Shown here: positions 1-35,248 of the stretch, one piece after another | How positions within the stretch are numbered: position 1 is the stretch's first letter | Layout of the letters: each line of letters opens with the position of its first letter | DNA from: an uncultured bacterium | GTDB lineage: Bacteria > Patescibacteriota > Minisyncoccia > Phycocordibacterales > PALSA-1337 | Assembly: GCA_903842025.1 (NCBI GenBank) | Contig: CAIMKX010000031.1 | Location: forward strand, 1 to 35,248 | Direction: 5' to 3' | Length of the DNA stretch: 35,248 nucleotides | The notes under the pieces: generated by a model | Told to the model about the DNA's origin: nothing | The model's database searches: none | What the model saw: only the letters and a program-made list of their open reading frames with translations | Position numbers and translations under genes: made by a program

Positions 1-120
1 AAGGCAAAATTCAAAATGAAATCACACTTGCTTCGGACATTTTACATTTTAAACTGTCATTTTTCATTTTGATATTTACATTTTACATTACACTGGATTC
101 CCGCTTTCGCGGGAATGACA
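1..120. repeat. Left arm of perfect 120-bp inverted repeat around rsmA
   Basis: Bases 1-120 are the exact reverse complement of 966-1085, with no mismatch in 120 positions. The arm holds low-complexity intergenic sequence rich in TTTTACATTTT-type words plus one REP-like palindrome (93-119). Pairing breaks at 121/965. It may extend left of the window, so the true length is unknown. The last ~20 codons of rsmA and its stop lie inside this arm. Confidence 0.95.
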
Positions 121-929
121 GAAGATTGATTTTGGTGAAAAGAATGACATTTACCTATCTTCAACCACTGATCTTTTGTCAGGTCCTCAGCCCGAATCTT
201 CGGATCGAGACCCAATTCTTGCCAAATACGTTTCAGATCGTCGTCTTTCATCACCGATTTCAGATTACTTATGAGAAATTTGCGTTTGTGAGCAAAGCCG
301 GCACGGACAATTTCAAAAAAACGGTCTATTTTGAGATTATTTTCAGCGAAAAAGGTGTTTTTGATGTTTTCTATGGCTAAAATGGCCGAATCGACAGTCG
401 GTGGCGGGGTAAAAGCTCCGGGTGGGACGGTGGCAATGATTTTTGGCGTTCCAAAAGCCTTGACGGATATGGAAAGGATACTTTCTTTGCCGTCTTTGGC
501 CACAATCCTGTTAGCGACTTCTTTTTGGACCAAAAGAATCATTTTATCGGGTCTGTATTCACATTCCAGGAATTTTTGCAGGATTGCTCCGGTAATGTAA
601 TACGGGATATTGGCGACAATCGAATATTGGCCTTTTGGGATAAAATCCGTTGAATCTTCCAAAATATCGCCATGAATAAGGGTGAAATCGCCAGCCGCGG
701 CCTGTTTGAAGAACTTTGTCCGTAATAATTCATGCGCCCGCTCGTCTTTTTCCACGGCAATGACTTTGGCGCCCGCATTCGATAGCGCTTCCGTCAGGAT
801 CCCCGTGCCAGGGCCAATTTCCAGGATAGTTTCTCCTTTTTTAATGTTGGCAGCATTAATTATCTGTTTCAAGACGTGCTTGGAATTGAGAAAATGTTGG
901 CCGAGTGATTTTTTTGGTGGTAAGTACAT
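57..929 (-). CDS. rsmA: 16S rRNA (adenine1518/1519-N6) dimethyltransferase RsmA/KsgA
   Basis: Dimethylates the two adjacent adenines in the 3'-terminal hairpin of 16S rRNA, a late step of small-subunit assembly, using S-adenosylmethionine. Visible: the family N-terminus KKSLGQHFL, the SAM-binding motif ILEIGPGTGIL, the acidic VEKDER strand, and the catalytic NIPYYITG motif. An in-frame ATG lies further upstream at 971, but 929 is preferred because family homology begins directly after MYLPP and 971 lies in the repeat arm. Oddity: the C-terminus runs into the inverted repeat, so about 20 residues beginning VIPAKAGIQ come from a REP-like palindrome rather than from the family. It follows pcrA on the same strand with a 224-nt repeat-filled gap, so independent expression is likely. 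The function is secure; the exact start is slightly less so. Confidence 0.96.
   Translation of the reverse strand: MYLPPKKSLGQHFLNSKHVLKQIINAANIKKGETILEIGPGTGILTEALSNAGAKVIAVEKDERAHELLRTKFFKQAAAGDFTLIHGDILEDSTDFIPKGQYSIVANIPYYITGAILQKFLECEYRPDKMILLVQKEVANRIVAKDGKESILSISVKAFGTPKIIATVPPGAFTPPPTVDSAILAIENIKNTFFAENNLKIDRFFEIVRAGFAHKRKFLISNLKSVMKDDDLKRIWQELGLDPKIRAEDLTKDQWLKIGKCHSFHQNQSSVIPAKAGIQCNVKCKYQNEK
93..119. repeat. REP-like palindrome copy 1
   Basis: 27-nt unit starting CTGGATTCCCGC and ending GCGGGAATGAC, with self-complementary CCCGC and GCGGG arms around TTTC. It lies within the left arm of the rsmA inverted repeat and encodes part of the RsmA tail. Confidence 0.85.
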
Positions 930-965
930 GTAAGTTATTTGGAATTTATCAAGAAATCTTTCGTT

Positions 966-1085
966 TGTCATTCCCGCGAAAGCGGGAATCCAGTGTAATG
1001 TAAAATGTAAATATCAAAATGAAAAATGACAGTTTAAAATGTAAAATGTCCGAAGCAAGTGTGATTTCATTTTGAATTTTGCCTT
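966..1085. repeat. Right arm of perfect 120-bp inverted repeat around rsmA
   Basis: Exact reverse complement of 1-120. It lies immediately upstream of the rsmA start (929), so any promoter for rsmA is in this arm, in 930-965, or further right. A related low-complexity stretch occurs at about 18735-18785, showing the arm belongs to a dispersed repeat family. Confidence 0.95.
967..993. repeat. REP-like palindrome copy 2
   Basis: Same 27-nt unit as copy 1 in the opposite orientation (GTCATTCCCGCG to GGGAATCCAG), within the right arm of the rsmA inverted repeat. Confidence 0.85.
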
Positions 1086-1123
1086 GTCATTTTGATTTTT
1101 GAATTTTCAATTAGTGTTCAACA

Positions 1124-1150
1124 CTGGATTCCCGCCTTCGCGGGAATGAC
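1124..1150. repeat. REP-like palindrome copy 3
   Basis: The unit has CCTTCG rather than CTTTCG at its centre. It lies just 3' of the pcrA stop codon (1154), where a hairpin could protect the pcrA transcript end or act as a weak terminator. Confidence 0.85.
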
Positions 1151-1153
1151 AAG

Positions 1154-3085
1154 CTAAAAATCAATAAAAAGCGCTTTGGCTCCGGTCGGTTTCTCTGGTA
1201 CTTGTTCTTCGATGAGCTCATTGCCGATATCATCTATGAATTCTGATGGTGTGTTGACTCTCTGTGCGCCGTAAATGGTTCGGATGATAGTATAACTCAA
1301 AAAGACTTTCTTTTTGGCCCGAGTCAGGGCGACATAGAATAGACGGCGTTCTTCTTCGGATTGACTGGCATTTTCTTCATCCATATGTTTGAAAGGAAAA
1401 AGATCTTGCTCGAGTCCGGCGATAAAGACGTAGTCGAATTCCAAACCTTTCGAAGCATGAACAGTCATAAGTTTCACCGCATCGATATTTTTTTGCAGAT
1501 CATCCTGATCTGTCGCCAAAGCCGCATTGGAAAGAAGAGTCTCGATCCCCTCTTCCGGCGGCAAATGATCGTATTGGGTGGCCACACTCACCAATTCCTG
1601 AATGTTCAATAATCTTTCTTCGGCATCGCTGTCACCCTCTTTGCGCAACATCTTCGAGATGCCGGTTTCTTCGATGACAAATTTTACTGTCTCTGAGGGT
1701 TTCTTTTCCTTAATTTCTTTGGCTATATCCCCAAGAAGCTTCCAAAATTCCGCAATTTTTATTTTCATGGCCGGCGGCAGCAAATCTTCTCTGTTGGAAG
1801 CAATCTTGGCGACCGTAACTTTGCCGATACCTCGAGCCGGCACGTTTATTATCCTATTGATGTCTCCCCAGCTATCCTTATTTAGAGCCGCTTTTATGTA
1901 GGAGAGGACGTCCTTGATCTCCTTCCTTTCAAAGAATCTGACGCCGACCAACTGGTAAGGTATGTTCTTTCTGATGAAGGATTCCTCTAGCACTCGTGAC
2001 TGGAAATTTGTCCTGTAGAGAACCGCAATATCTTGTGGAGCCGTTCCGGAATCGATCAGTAATCGGGCCGTATCGGCGATATTTCGTGCCTCATCAGTTT
2101 CTGTGTAAGAAACCATCAGGGATAATTTGTCTCCGCGGTCGTTGTCTGTATAAAGAGTCTTCTTTTTTCTCAAAAGATTTTTTTCAATGACAGCATTGGC
2201 CGCCGCAAGGATATTCTTTGTCGAGCGATAATTTTTCTCCAGGACAATTACGGTTGCCTCCGGATAATCTTTTTCAAAATTTATCATGTTCTCCATGGTC
2301 GCTCCGCGCCAACTGTAGATATTCTGATCGGCATCGCCGACAACGCAGATATTATGGTGCGATTCTGACAAATATTTCACAATCTTGTATTGGACGCGGT
2401 TGGTGTCCTGATATTCATCGACATGGATATATTTCCAAACATCGCTGTAATGCTTGCGGATCGGCTCATATTTTCCAAGAATTTGCGCGGTTTTTAACAG
2501 AAGATCGTCAAAGTCCAAAGCTTTTTCTTTCTGCAGGATCGCCTCGTATTTTTCCCAGACGTTTGCCGTCAATTCCTGCATATAATCTTTTGCCGAATCA
2601 AGATATGCCGCCTGGTTGATACCCTCGCCCTTGGCTCGGGAGATCAGGTTCAAAATAATACCGGGATCGAATTTCTTGGGATCGACCGAGCCTTGTTCCA
2701 TCGCTTCCTTCACCGCCCGTTTCGAGTCGCTTCTGTCAAAAATCGTGAAATGTCTCGTCAAACCCACGAGAGCCGCATTTTCCTTGATAATATGAACACC
2801 CAAAGCGTGGAAAGTGCTGACAAAAGGCTTTTCACTCATTGAAATGGGTAAATTCAAGTCTTTATCTTCCTTGAGCAGGATTTCAACCCTTTCTCGCATC
2901 TCTTTGGCCGCCTTATTGGTGAAAGTTATGGCCAGAATGGAATGCGGCGGCGTTCCTTTCTTGATTAAATTTAATATCCTATGGGTTATGACTCTGGTTT
3001 TCCCTGCCCCAGCTCCGGCCACGATCAAGACAGGACCTTCAGTCGCATCGATCGCCTCCTGCTGTTCTTTGTTCATCGAGTTCAT
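1154..3085 (-). CDS. pcrA: UvrD/PcrA-type superfamily 1 DNA helicase
   Basis: ATP-driven 3'-5' DNA helicase for repair and replication-restart. Visible in order: the Q-motif-like NKEQQEAI; Walker A GAGAGKT at residues 24-30; motif Ia ITFTNKAA; Walker B DEYQDTN at 223-229; motif III GDADQNIYSWRGA near 250-262; motif IV NYRST; motif V VHASKGLEFDYVF; and motif VI FYVALTRAKK. At 643 aa it is shorter than typical PcrA/UvrD (about 720), with a reduced C-terminal tail, as is common in small genomes. The start could be the first ATG (3085) or the fourth codon (3076). REP-like units lie on both sides (1124-1150 and 3184-3295). Whether it is the PcrA or UvrD orthologue cannot be decided by eye. Confidence 0.95.
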   Translation of the reverse strand: MNSMNKEQQEAIDATEGPVLIVAGAGAGKTRVITHRILNLIKKGTPPHSILAITFTNKAAKEMRERVEILLKEDKDLNLPISMSEKPFVSTFHALGVHIIKENAALVGLTRHFTIFDRSDSKRAVKEAMEQGSVDPKKFDPGIILNLISRAKGEGINQAAYLDSAKDYMQELTANVWEKYEAILQKEKALDFDDLLLKTAQILGKYEPIRKHYSDVWKYIHVDEYQDTNRVQYKIVKYLSESHHNICVVGDADQNIYSWRGATMENMINFEKDYPEATVIVLEKNYRSTKNILAAANAVIEKNLLRKKKTLYTDNDRGDKLSLMVSYTETDEARNIADTARLLIDSGTAPQDIAVLYRTNFQSRVLEESFIRKNIPYQLVGVRFFERKEIKDVLSYIKAALNKDSWGDINRIINVPARGIGKVTVAKIASNREDLLPPAMKIKIAEFWKLLGDIAKEIKEKKPSETVKFVIEETGISKMLRKEGDSDAEERLLNIQELVSVATQYDHLPPEEGIETLLSNAALATDQDDLQKNIDAVKLMTVHASKGLEFDYVFIAGLEQDLFPFKHMDEENASQSEEERRLFYVALTRAKKKVFLSYTIIRTIYGAQRVNTPSEFIDDIGNELIEEQVPEKPTGAKALFIDF

Positions 3086-3183
3086 TGAACCAGTCTACAT
3101 TAAGATTCGAGATTGAGGAATGATTTAGAGAAAGTGCAAAGTGAAAAATGCAAGTTTGTAGTGAATAAGAAAGCTCTGCGCTT

Positions 3184-3210
3184 GTCATTCCCGCGAAGGC
3201 GGGAATCCAG
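3184..3210. repeat. REP-like palindrome copy 4
   Basis: 27-nt unit, GTCATTCCCGCG to GGGAATCCAG orientation. It forms an inverted pair with copy 5. Confidence 0.85.
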
Positions 3211-3268
3211 GATGTTACCGAAACATTTGTTGTTACAAATTTAAATTGAGAATCCGATCTTAATAATC

Positions 3269-3295
3269 CTGGATTCCCGCCTTCGCGGGAATGAC
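3269..3295. repeat. REP-like palindrome copy 5
   Basis: 27-nt unit in the opposite orientation to copy 4. The pair can form one long stem over a 58-nt loop. Confidence 0.85.
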
Positions 3296-3401
3296 AAGCA
3301 AAAGAATACCCGCACAACTTTGCATTTTACACTTTGCACTGTAAACTTTTCATCACATTATTTGACAACTCAGCAATATTATCTGCTGTGTACATCTTCC
3401 A

Positions 3402-20613: not shown

Positions 20614-20645
20614 AACATAAAAACGCCTTATGGCGGTTTTATGTT
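20614..20645. terminator. Duplicate copy of the hup terminator hairpin
   Basis: Same 14-bp stem as 22450-22481 with one mismatch (A opposite G). A second hairpin follows, whose stem differs from its counterpart by a compensatory pair (CAGTAAC/GTTACTG versus CAATAAC/GTTATTG). Confidence 0.7.
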
Positions 20646-20691
20646 CGATAGCAGTAACGAGATTGTTACTGTGATAGTGCTTAAGAAAACC

Positions 20692-20778
20692 TTATTTAAC
20701 AGCGTCCTTCAAAGCCTTGGCAGCGCGGAACTTAGGAACCTTCATGGCTGGGACTTTGATGGCCTCACCAGTGCGAGG
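20692..20778 (-). pseudogene. Truncated hup 3' fragment (28 C-terminal codons)
   Basis: Encodes the last 28 residues of HU (PRTGEAIKVPAMKVPKF and the following RAAKALKDAVK) plus stop, in the same orientation as the intact hup at 22537. Three base differences in 87, all synonymous. Downstream it keeps the hup terminator hairpins, so about 165 bp are duplicated. Upstream the homology stops abruptly at 20778, before a GC-rich low-complexity tract. Confidence 0.9.
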
Positions 20779-22449: not shown

Positions 22450-22481
22450 AACATAAAACCGCCCTATGGCGGTTTTATGTT
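22450..22481. terminator. Bidirectional terminator between hup and the cargo gene
   Basis: AACATAAAACCGCC and its complement form a perfect 14-bp stem around CTAT. A palindrome (CAATAACGAGCTCGTTATTG) follows at about 22488-22507. The converging genes 21752-22444 (+) and hup (-) both run into it. Confidence 0.9.
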
Positions 22482-22536
22482 CGATAGCAATAACGAGCTC
22501 GTTATTGTGTTTTGGTGACAAGATACTAATATAACC

Positions 22537-22809
22537 TTATTTAACAGCGTCCTTCAAAGCCTTAGCAGCGCGGAACTTGGGAACCTTCATGGCTGGGACC
22601 TTGATGGCCTCACCAGTGCGAGGATTGCGGGCTTCACGGGCGGCTCTCTGCTTGACTGAGAAGATACCGAGACCGGCAATGGAAACTTCCTCACCCTTCT
22701 TTAACGAATCAATGATGCTGTTAATGGCAGTCTCGACAGCTTGTTCGGCTTGGACCTTGGTTCCACCAAGGACAGCGTGAACGGCATCTACTATGCTTGC
22801 TTTATTCAT
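22537..22809 (-). CDS. hup: HU-family DNA-binding protein
   Basis: A 90-aa nucleoid protein that bends and compacts DNA as a dimer. It matches the HU fold along its length: helices MNKASIVDAVHAVLGG and AEQAVETAINSIIDSLKKGEEV, the GLGIFSVKQRAAREARNP beta arm with the Pro tip, and the C-terminal helix. The intact gene has its own promoter and leader (23017-23044), with a MITE-like palindrome inserted 10 nt before its start codon. A second copy of its last 28 codons and terminators lies 1.85 kb downstream, at 20614-20778. Confidence 0.97.
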   Translation of the reverse strand: MNKASIVDAVHAVLGGTKVQAEQAVETAINSIIDSLKKGEEVSIAGLGIFSVKQRAAREARNPRTGEAIKVPAMKVPKFRAAKALKDAVK

Positions 22810-26352: not shown

Positions 26353-26393
26353 GAATAAGGGGATTGGGGTGTTTCACAAAAATTTCTTAGTTT

Positions 26394-26420
26394 GTCATTC
26401 CCGCGAAAGCGGGAATCCAG
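26394..26420. repeat. REP-like palindrome copy 6
   Basis: 27-nt unit in GTCATTCCCGCG orientation. Forms an inverted pair with copy 7 around the rsmE/tig terminator. Confidence 0.85.
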
Positions 26421-26450
26421 GATATCGCCAAAGCCGATCTAATTCGATGT

Positions 26451-26490
26451 AAACAAAAAGGCCGATAGGTTACCTAGCGGCTTTTTGTTT
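26451..26490. terminator. Bidirectional terminator between rsmE and tig
   Basis: Arms AAACAAAAAGGCCGATAGGT and ACCTAGCGGCTTTTTGTTT pair almost fully, with A and T tracts. It sits centrally between an inverted pair of REP-like units. Confidence 0.9.
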
Positions 26491-26494
26491 AATC

Positions 26495-26521
26495 CTGGAT
26501 TCCCGCCTTCGCGGGAATGAC
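26495..26521. repeat. REP-like palindrome copy 7
   Basis: 27-nt unit in CTGGATTCCCGC orientation, ending 7 nt before the tig stop codon. Confidence 0.85.
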
Positions 26522-26528
26522 AAGACAA

Positions 26529-34996: not shown

Positions 34997-35062
34997 AGAT
35001 CTGACCGCTTATAATAAATGTACAATTAGGGATAATAGCAGGAAATGGCGGGAATGGTAGGG

Positions 35063-35090
35063 TTGACAGATTTAACTATAGTTATATAGT
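35063..35090 (+). promoter_or_regulatory. Strong sigma70-type promoter reading to the right edge
   Basis: TTGACA (35063-35068), a 16-nt spacer and TATAGT (35085-35090). It transcribes away from hppA to unseen sequence. In 34958-35248 no full gene is visible. Confidence 0.55.
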
Positions 35091-35117
35091 GTGCATGGCT
35101 GATAGGTGGTAAATTTT

Positions 35118-35248
35118 CTAGTGAAATGCAACTCTCTCTGTTAATGATTTAAGTATGCCATGACTCTCGGCTACTTCCAAGGCGCTCCGGTAATGGAGCG
35201 ATTTTCTGTATTTGTTGTTGATGATTTTGATATTCTTTTGAAACATGT
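35118..35248 (-). CDS. Possible partial ORF open at the right edge
   Basis: A 42-codon minus-strand frame from an ATG at 35246 to a TAG at 35118-35120, possibly continuing from outside. It encodes KIINNKYRKSL and ALEVAESHGILKSLTERVAF. A 29-codon plus-strand frame from 35160 is also open to the edge. Too short to choose; a CGCTCC/GGAGCG hairpin (35183-35200) overlaps both. Confidence 0.2.
   Translation of the reverse strand, partial: MFQKNIKIINNKYRKSLHYRSALEVAESHGILKSLTERVAFH

Follow-up and report, generated by a model that had tools for sequence, protein, structure and literature searches.

A perfect inverted repeat around rsmA in a Paceibacteria genome consists of two dispersed CGTC-1 REP dimers, a repeat type associated with a small GIY-YIG nuclease gene

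What is the perfect 120-bp inverted repeat that encloses rsmA at one end of a Paceibacteria contig, and does it act on the gene between its arms? The stretch of DNA analyzed here (the window) is the entire contig C31, 35,248 bp long, from a genome of 949,867 bp in 56 contigs that is 99% complete and belongs to the Paceibacteria (CPR/Patescibacteria); the relatives found through RsmA are Paceibacteria / Candidatus Parcubacteria MAGs. An earlier note on this sequence had reported the repeat and offered several readings of it, among them an invertible switch of rsmA transcription, a recent duplication, and a chimeric contig end. The repeat itself is exactly as described: positions 966–1085, reverse-complemented, equal positions 1–120, and the identity ends at the inner edge (120/966), which coincides with the end of a palindromic repeat. 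A perfect inverted repeat of 120 bp is far beyond chance. Base 1 is indeed a contig end, as the window spans all of C31. The recent duplication and the contig end at the start of the repeat hold up, whereas the chimera and the switch do not.

The 120-bp arm is not private to rsmA, and dozens more copies are found across the genome. The two arms are nearly identical copies, in opposite orientation, of one dispersed element of 186–193 bp. It is built of two CGTC-family REP palindromes, TGTCATTCCCGC-GAAR-GCGGGAATCCAG, inverted relative to each other around a spacer. Each REP is laid out as a TGTC tag, an 8-bp stem (ATTCCCGC) with A-T pairs at its first two positions, a 4-nt loop (GAAA or GAAG), the returning strand GCGGGAAT, and a CCA tail. 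As DNA, the 186-bp copy folds into one long hairpin (-52.3 kcal/mol, z -12.5 relative to shuffles). An Rfam scan of the window returned tRNAs and nothing else. Features are listed in Table 1.

Table 1. Repeat copies and neighboring genes in the 35,248-bp window, by position and strand.
Feature	Position	Strand	Remarks
Left arm: truncated REP-dimer copy A, first 120 of 193 bp	1..120	-	Remainder on contig C40
REP palindrome TGTCATTCCCGC-GAAA-GCGGGAATCCAG, CGTC-1 type, tag TGTC	93..120	-	
rsmA ORF	57..971	-	PF00398, E 6.7e-55; probable start 929 (MYLPPKKSLGQHFL)
Right arm and remainder: complete REP-dimer copy B, 186 bp	966..1151	.	2 bp past uvrD stop codon, between uvrD and rsmA
REP palindrome, TGTC tag outward	966..993	+	
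REP palindrome, inverted partner of 966..993, tag outward	1124..1151	-	
uvrD-like helicase, upstream neighbor of rsmA	1154..3085	-	Order conserved
Further REP dimer, 114 bp	3183..3296	.	
Further REP dimer, 130 bp	26393..26522	.	

A census of all contigs that allowed up to 5 substitutions found 94 REP sites, 91 of them beginning with TGTC. They form 35 close pairs, and 34 of these are inverted with the TGTC tags pointing outward. Full-length similar copies of the element (86–96% identical) lie on contigs C40, C35, C14, C12, C38, C42, C1, and C47, and more divergent copies occur elsewhere. Dimers range from a minimal form of 86–92 bp through 114–130 bp and several AT-rich families of about 170–197 bp to 213 and 248 bp, with one of 384 bp. 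Two dimers (C9:23752-23964 and C45:20273-20520) carry a GC-rich CCGCACCCTCTC...GAGGGTGCGG hairpin as spacer and represent a distinct cargo family. Some REP palindromes are fused and bear a tag at either end (TGTCATTCCCGCGAARGCGGGAATGACA), for example at C1:12788-12815, C9:10385-10412, and C20:13470-13497; they are probably internal-deletion products of dimers, since a dimer recombining between its GCGGGAAT direct repeats would give exactly this form. None of 33 dimers has a target-site duplication (k = 2–8). Their flanks are T-rich on the left and A-rich on the right, and flank complementarity gave no signal beyond that bias. Under the strict REP pattern, this genome has 70 matches vs. 0–5 in each of 33 genomes of the same genus, a burst specific to this lineage. 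Elsewhere in the window (20614–20778 and 22450–22623), two duplicated 3′ gene ends (an HU-like C-terminus, PRTGEAIKVPAMKVPKFRAAKAL) are accompanied by duplicated terminator-like palindromes.

The left end of the window was compared with the other contigs of the genome. Its reverse complement overlaps the start of contig C40 exactly over 111 bp, and the joined copy A measures 193 bp, a 7-bp indel being its sole difference from copy B. C31 stops some 9–10 bases short of that indel, which is the first difference between the copies, so the perfect identity of the arms is partly a matter of ascertainment. About 20 relatives, from the same genus and in several cases from further away, share the gene order across the join, M23 (opposite strand) followed by UvrD-RsmA-C40p1-C40p2-C40p3; together with the overlap, this connects the left arm to real, unique sequence. 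A chimeric, hairpin-like contig end was a reasonable suspicion for a repeat that starts at base 1 of a contig, but the arm continues into C40 with the conserved gene order, and copies that differ by an indel are not one molecule read twice; we consider such an artifact very improbable. Rather, the short-read contig ended within copy A owing to its near-identity with copy B. That the repeat is what we describe, and that the contig ends for this reason, is jointly almost certain. A constant assembler k-mer is not claimed as the source of the 111-bp overlap, as a different contig pair overlaps by 141 bp. The right end of the window (35049–35248) also lies in a dispersed repeat, whose reverse complement (ACATGTTTCAAAAGAATATC...) is the start of C21 and which is seen at or near the starts of C10, C17, and C25 as well.

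The left arm also forms part of a gene, as the earlier note had recognized: the last ~21 codons of rsmA (SVIPAKAGIQCNVKCKYQNEK) and its stop codon are supplied by copy A, and in same-genus relatives rsmA stops earlier than the position it reaches here inside the element. Homologous recombination between the ~120-bp identical inverted arms that flank rsmA is physically possible, occasional events included, and a phase-variable inversion of the gene would work in this way. Yet in every relative in which both were found, rsmA is co-directional with its downstream neighbors, and none shows it inverted. Inversion would also part rsmA from uvrD, and with the REP-supplied ends unchanged it would bring no obvious promoter switch. 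Adjacent, inward-facing REPs bracket a gene-sized interval (<3 kb) at 13 sites genome-wide, that of rsmA among them, so the situation of rsmA is what repeat density would lead one to expect and is not special. No sign of a dedicated recombinase was found among the neighboring proteins examined (UvrD, M23, and C40p1-3). With a constant orientation in relatives and rsmA only one of 13 bracketings in the genome, the proposed switch has hardly any probability left. In one Taylorbacteria MAG (L128 3790-6798), uvrD rather than rsmA is inverted, and the other genes keep their order.

CGTC-tagged REPs are one of the two great superfamilies of bacterial REPs, and few short bacterial repeats are more common; read-through of them yields the VIPAKAGIQ and SRFRGND peptides familiar from gene predictions. 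To our knowledge, they have been without an enzyme, orphaned, since 2013. In its tag, stem, loop, and tail, and in the way its dimers are arranged, the repeat in the window fits family CGTC-1, which includes dRS3 of Neisseria and RPE-6 of Rickettsia (Di Nocera et al., 2013; PMC3733652). It adds a member to this known family, from a phylum missing from the 2013 list. That study reported no dedicated transposase for CGTC REPs (PMC3733652). A search for the Y1/RAYT transposase (Y1_Tnp, PF01797) found no match in the 99%-complete genome of the window; the search returned matches in 5 of 14 control genomes.

Only one adjacent outward REP pair in the genome is spaced 250–3000 bp apart, and the 92-codon ORF inside it (C20:10120-10395; the whole REP-bounded unit spans C20:10053-10436, corresponding to L197 1434-1817) is the only ORF in this genome enclosed by an outward REP pair. 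It encodes a 92-aa GIY-YIG nuclease (PF01541, E 1.9e-18), for which NCBIfam gave only a sub-threshold match, to an intron-endonuclease. The catalytic residues Y8, Y19, G21, R29, H33, and E66 are conserved, and Y8, Y19, R29, H33, and E66 are invariant across 24 sequences. Within the window's own genus, all three subfamily genes (that of L197 counted) are REP-flanked vs. none of seven distant GIY-YIGs.

The pairing extends across Patescibacteria. Among 197 genomes of the order, 18 contain this distinct, close GIY-YIG subfamily, and many distant GIY-YIGs are present besides. Nearly all close members examined in this discovery set lie between inverted palindromes whose tags point outward, compared to none of 12 distant ones; the palindromes vary between genomes and often match within a locus. 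For validation, 49 loci were drawn by profile from 380 Patescibacteria genomes, and the control set was enlarged to 32 distant GIY-YIGs. Outward tags on both sides were found at 39 of the 49 validation loci vs. 2 of the 32 controls (Fisher, p ~2e-11), and tag orientation in the validation set was outward-only at 35 loci vs. inward-only at 2. Tagged hairpins stand on both sides at 20/49 loci (median 40 nt from the start codon) vs. 0/32 controls. Likewise, 20/49 reach an inverted-repeat score of at least 36, compared to 0/32 controls and 5.7% when loci within the set were mismatched, so the paired REPs of one locus resemble each other more than they resemble those of other loci. Examples are TGTCATTCCCGCCACAGCGGGAATCCA at locus L267 and TGTCATTCTGAACTTGATTCAGAATCCA at L275, each on both sides of the gene. 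The stems of a locus' two REPs sometimes differ, which indicates that stem-sequence specificity is loose, and a clear REP pair is missing at some loci that have the gene (L228, L234, and L279).

The association is also visible at the level of whole genomes. A GCGGGAAT-type REP is present in 8 of the 18 genomes of the order that bear the subfamily vs. 8 of the 179 others (Fisher, 8e-6, with shared ancestry ignored), and the largest REP counts among the 197 (70, 64, and 43) all belong to gene-bearing genomes. One genome (G168) is a counter-example, with 15 REPs and no gene of the subfamily. Overall, we have little doubt that the association between this GIY-YIG subfamily and CGTC REPs is specific. 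The GIY-YIG profile matches nine times in one 0.9-Mb genome (G415), on C21 and other contigs and several times on a single contig, an apparent proliferation.

REP-GIY-YIG-REP loci were found in other phyla as well. Plasmid records with the subfamily come from Azospirillum, Rhizobium, Sinorhizobium, Shinella, Neorhizobium, Novosphingobium, Sphingobium, Aeromonas, Photobacterium, Planktothrix, Spirosoma, and two N. gonorrhoeae. The flanks of 12 of 14 plasmid loci, proteobacterial megaplasmids included, have an inverted-repeat score of at least 36, vs. 0/32 controls; the Shinella flank repeat, for example, is CGTCATCCTCGGGCTTGACCCGAGGATCCA. In N. gonorrhoeae, the REPs neighboring the gene are not outward-tagged. 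Azospirillum lipoferum, Sinorhizobium meliloti, Novosphingobium aromaticivorans, and Neisseriae are among the CGTC-bearing species named in PMC3733652.

Two of these loci have both occupied and empty counterparts. The first, on Sphingobium plasmids, lies between fnrL and a response-regulator gene: REP-GIY-REP is present there in seven strains, while only a fused palindrome occupies the spot in TomTYG64 (CGTCACCCCGGGTCAAGCCCGGGGTGACG) and TomTYG74, and TomTYG72 has neither REP nor GIY-YIG gene there. In A. lipoferum, a block composed of a REP dimer, the GIY-YIG gene, and a second REP dimer interrupts sufB-sufC; the block is absent in A. ramasamyi, A. oryzae, and B510. For the copy in Rhizobium CIAT894, a search of the plasmid set turned up no empty site.

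GIY-YIG enzymes are the classic nucleases of homing, and the main rival explanation is that the gene is a homing-endonuclease-like parasite inserting into CGTC REP dimers, which would themselves spread by other means. The two gene-less Sphingobium strains that have only a fused palindrome at precisely this spot could be read in this way, and REPs are known targets of IS elements, going by the title of PMC1525189. However, the fused palindrome is also the remnant expected from deletion between the internal direct repeats of REP-GIY-REP, and REP counts correlate with the gene. The Azospirillum relatives and Sphingobium TYG72, moreover, have no REP at all at the site, which implies that gene and REPs were gained or lost together; the Azospirillum sites in particular favor joint movement. 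We find homing unlikely, although it deserves more weight than any other rival.

The explanation we prefer, and consider probable as a whole, is one of mobile CGTC-1 REP dimers whose coding member is REP-GIY-YIG-REP, and the copies in the window are best read as non-autonomous relatives of it. One REPIN-like or MITE-like copy inserted 2 bp downstream of the uvrD stop codon, before rsmA, and the other landed at the 3′ end of rsmA, whose final codons and stop it now provides. The family's coding member, a small GIY-YIG nuclease gene between two REPs, would be represented in this genome by the locus on C20. Its enzyme may recognize extruded REP hairpins by tag and tail, the (C/T)GTC tag facing outward and the CCA tail inward; the stems differ freely. 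It would then cut at the tag, and the bounded segment would be excised or copied and resealed elsewhere, mostly between genes and at T/A-biased sites, with no target duplication. Gene-less elements (86–197 bp), such as those around rsmA, would be moved in trans, and dimers that recombine between their GCGGGAAT direct repeats would be left as fused palindromes. The association is observed, whereas we infer the specificity of the enzyme, its cutting, and the movement; on the narrower claim that GIY-YIG actually mobilizes REPs we lean toward yes with slightly less assurance than for the explanation as a whole.

It could also be argued that the CGTC REPs of this genome are immobile relics with a structural or transcript-level role, and that the link to GIY-YIG reflects a host repair enzyme or hitch-hiking. 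REPs can serve as terminators or mRNA stabilizers (literature cited in PMC3733652), which would suit such relics. The near-identical copies of 193 and 186 bp, the species-specific burst, and the strain-variable sites all speak against them, and we regard this possibility as improbable.

The open-access literature searched yielded no relevant report that pairs GIY-YIG with REP, RAYT, REPIN, dRS3, or bacterial MITEs, and the link between REPs and GIY-YIG appears to be unreported there. Whether CGTC REPs in general, the dRS3 type included, are the non-autonomous arm of a widespread mobile class, with a ~90-aa GIY-YIG nuclease between two REP hairpins as its only gene, is in our judgment an even bet. 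If true, this would be a third way to move small palindromic DNA, free of both HUH and DDE enzymes, and GIY-YIG would join the nuclease folds that drive transposition-like movement in bacteria. The small, REP-enclosed GIY-YIG nuclease is a concrete and testable candidate enzyme for CGTC REPs, parallel to RAYT for GTAG REPs. For the genome studied here, mobile REP dimers would explain the inverted repeat around rsmA, several contig breaks, and the repeat-derived tail of RsmA without an inversion switch.

The elements can be placed among four known systems. With other CGTC-1 REPs they share the TGTC tag, the 8-bp stem (ATTCCCGC/GCGGGAAT), the 4-nt loop, the CCA tail, dispersal as inverted dimers, and the lack of a flanking tyrosine transposase. 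They differ in that the host belongs to the Paceibacteria (Patescibacteria), absent from the five phyla listed in 2013, in that the dimers carry several spacer families, and in that one dimer holds a GIY-YIG gene, a link without mention in the portions of PMC3733652 used here. Like classical DDE-transposase MITEs, they are short, have many copies, and end in terminal inverted repeats; unlike them, their ends are themselves hairpins, and the 33 dimers have no target-site duplication. The nuclease has the catalytic domain and residues of free-standing and intron-borne GIY-YIG homing endonucleases and of UPF0213 proteins (PDB 1zg2). In contrast to these, the subfamily has a C-terminal NPxWxDL motif and usually lies within a pair of REP-type hairpins, is intergenic, and is multi-copy in some genomes; the UPF0213-like distant GIY-YIGs have no REPs. 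In REPIN-RAYT systems, GTAG REPs accompany TnpA_REP, an HUH/Y1 nuclease (PMC3116915, PMC2817692, PMC8266576). Here the tag is CGTC/TGTC rather than GTAG, the nuclease is GIY-YIG rather than Y1, and the genome has no RAYT gene of its own, but both systems comprise inverted palindrome dimers, non-autonomous copies, and one dedicated nuclease gene with the same palindromes on either side.
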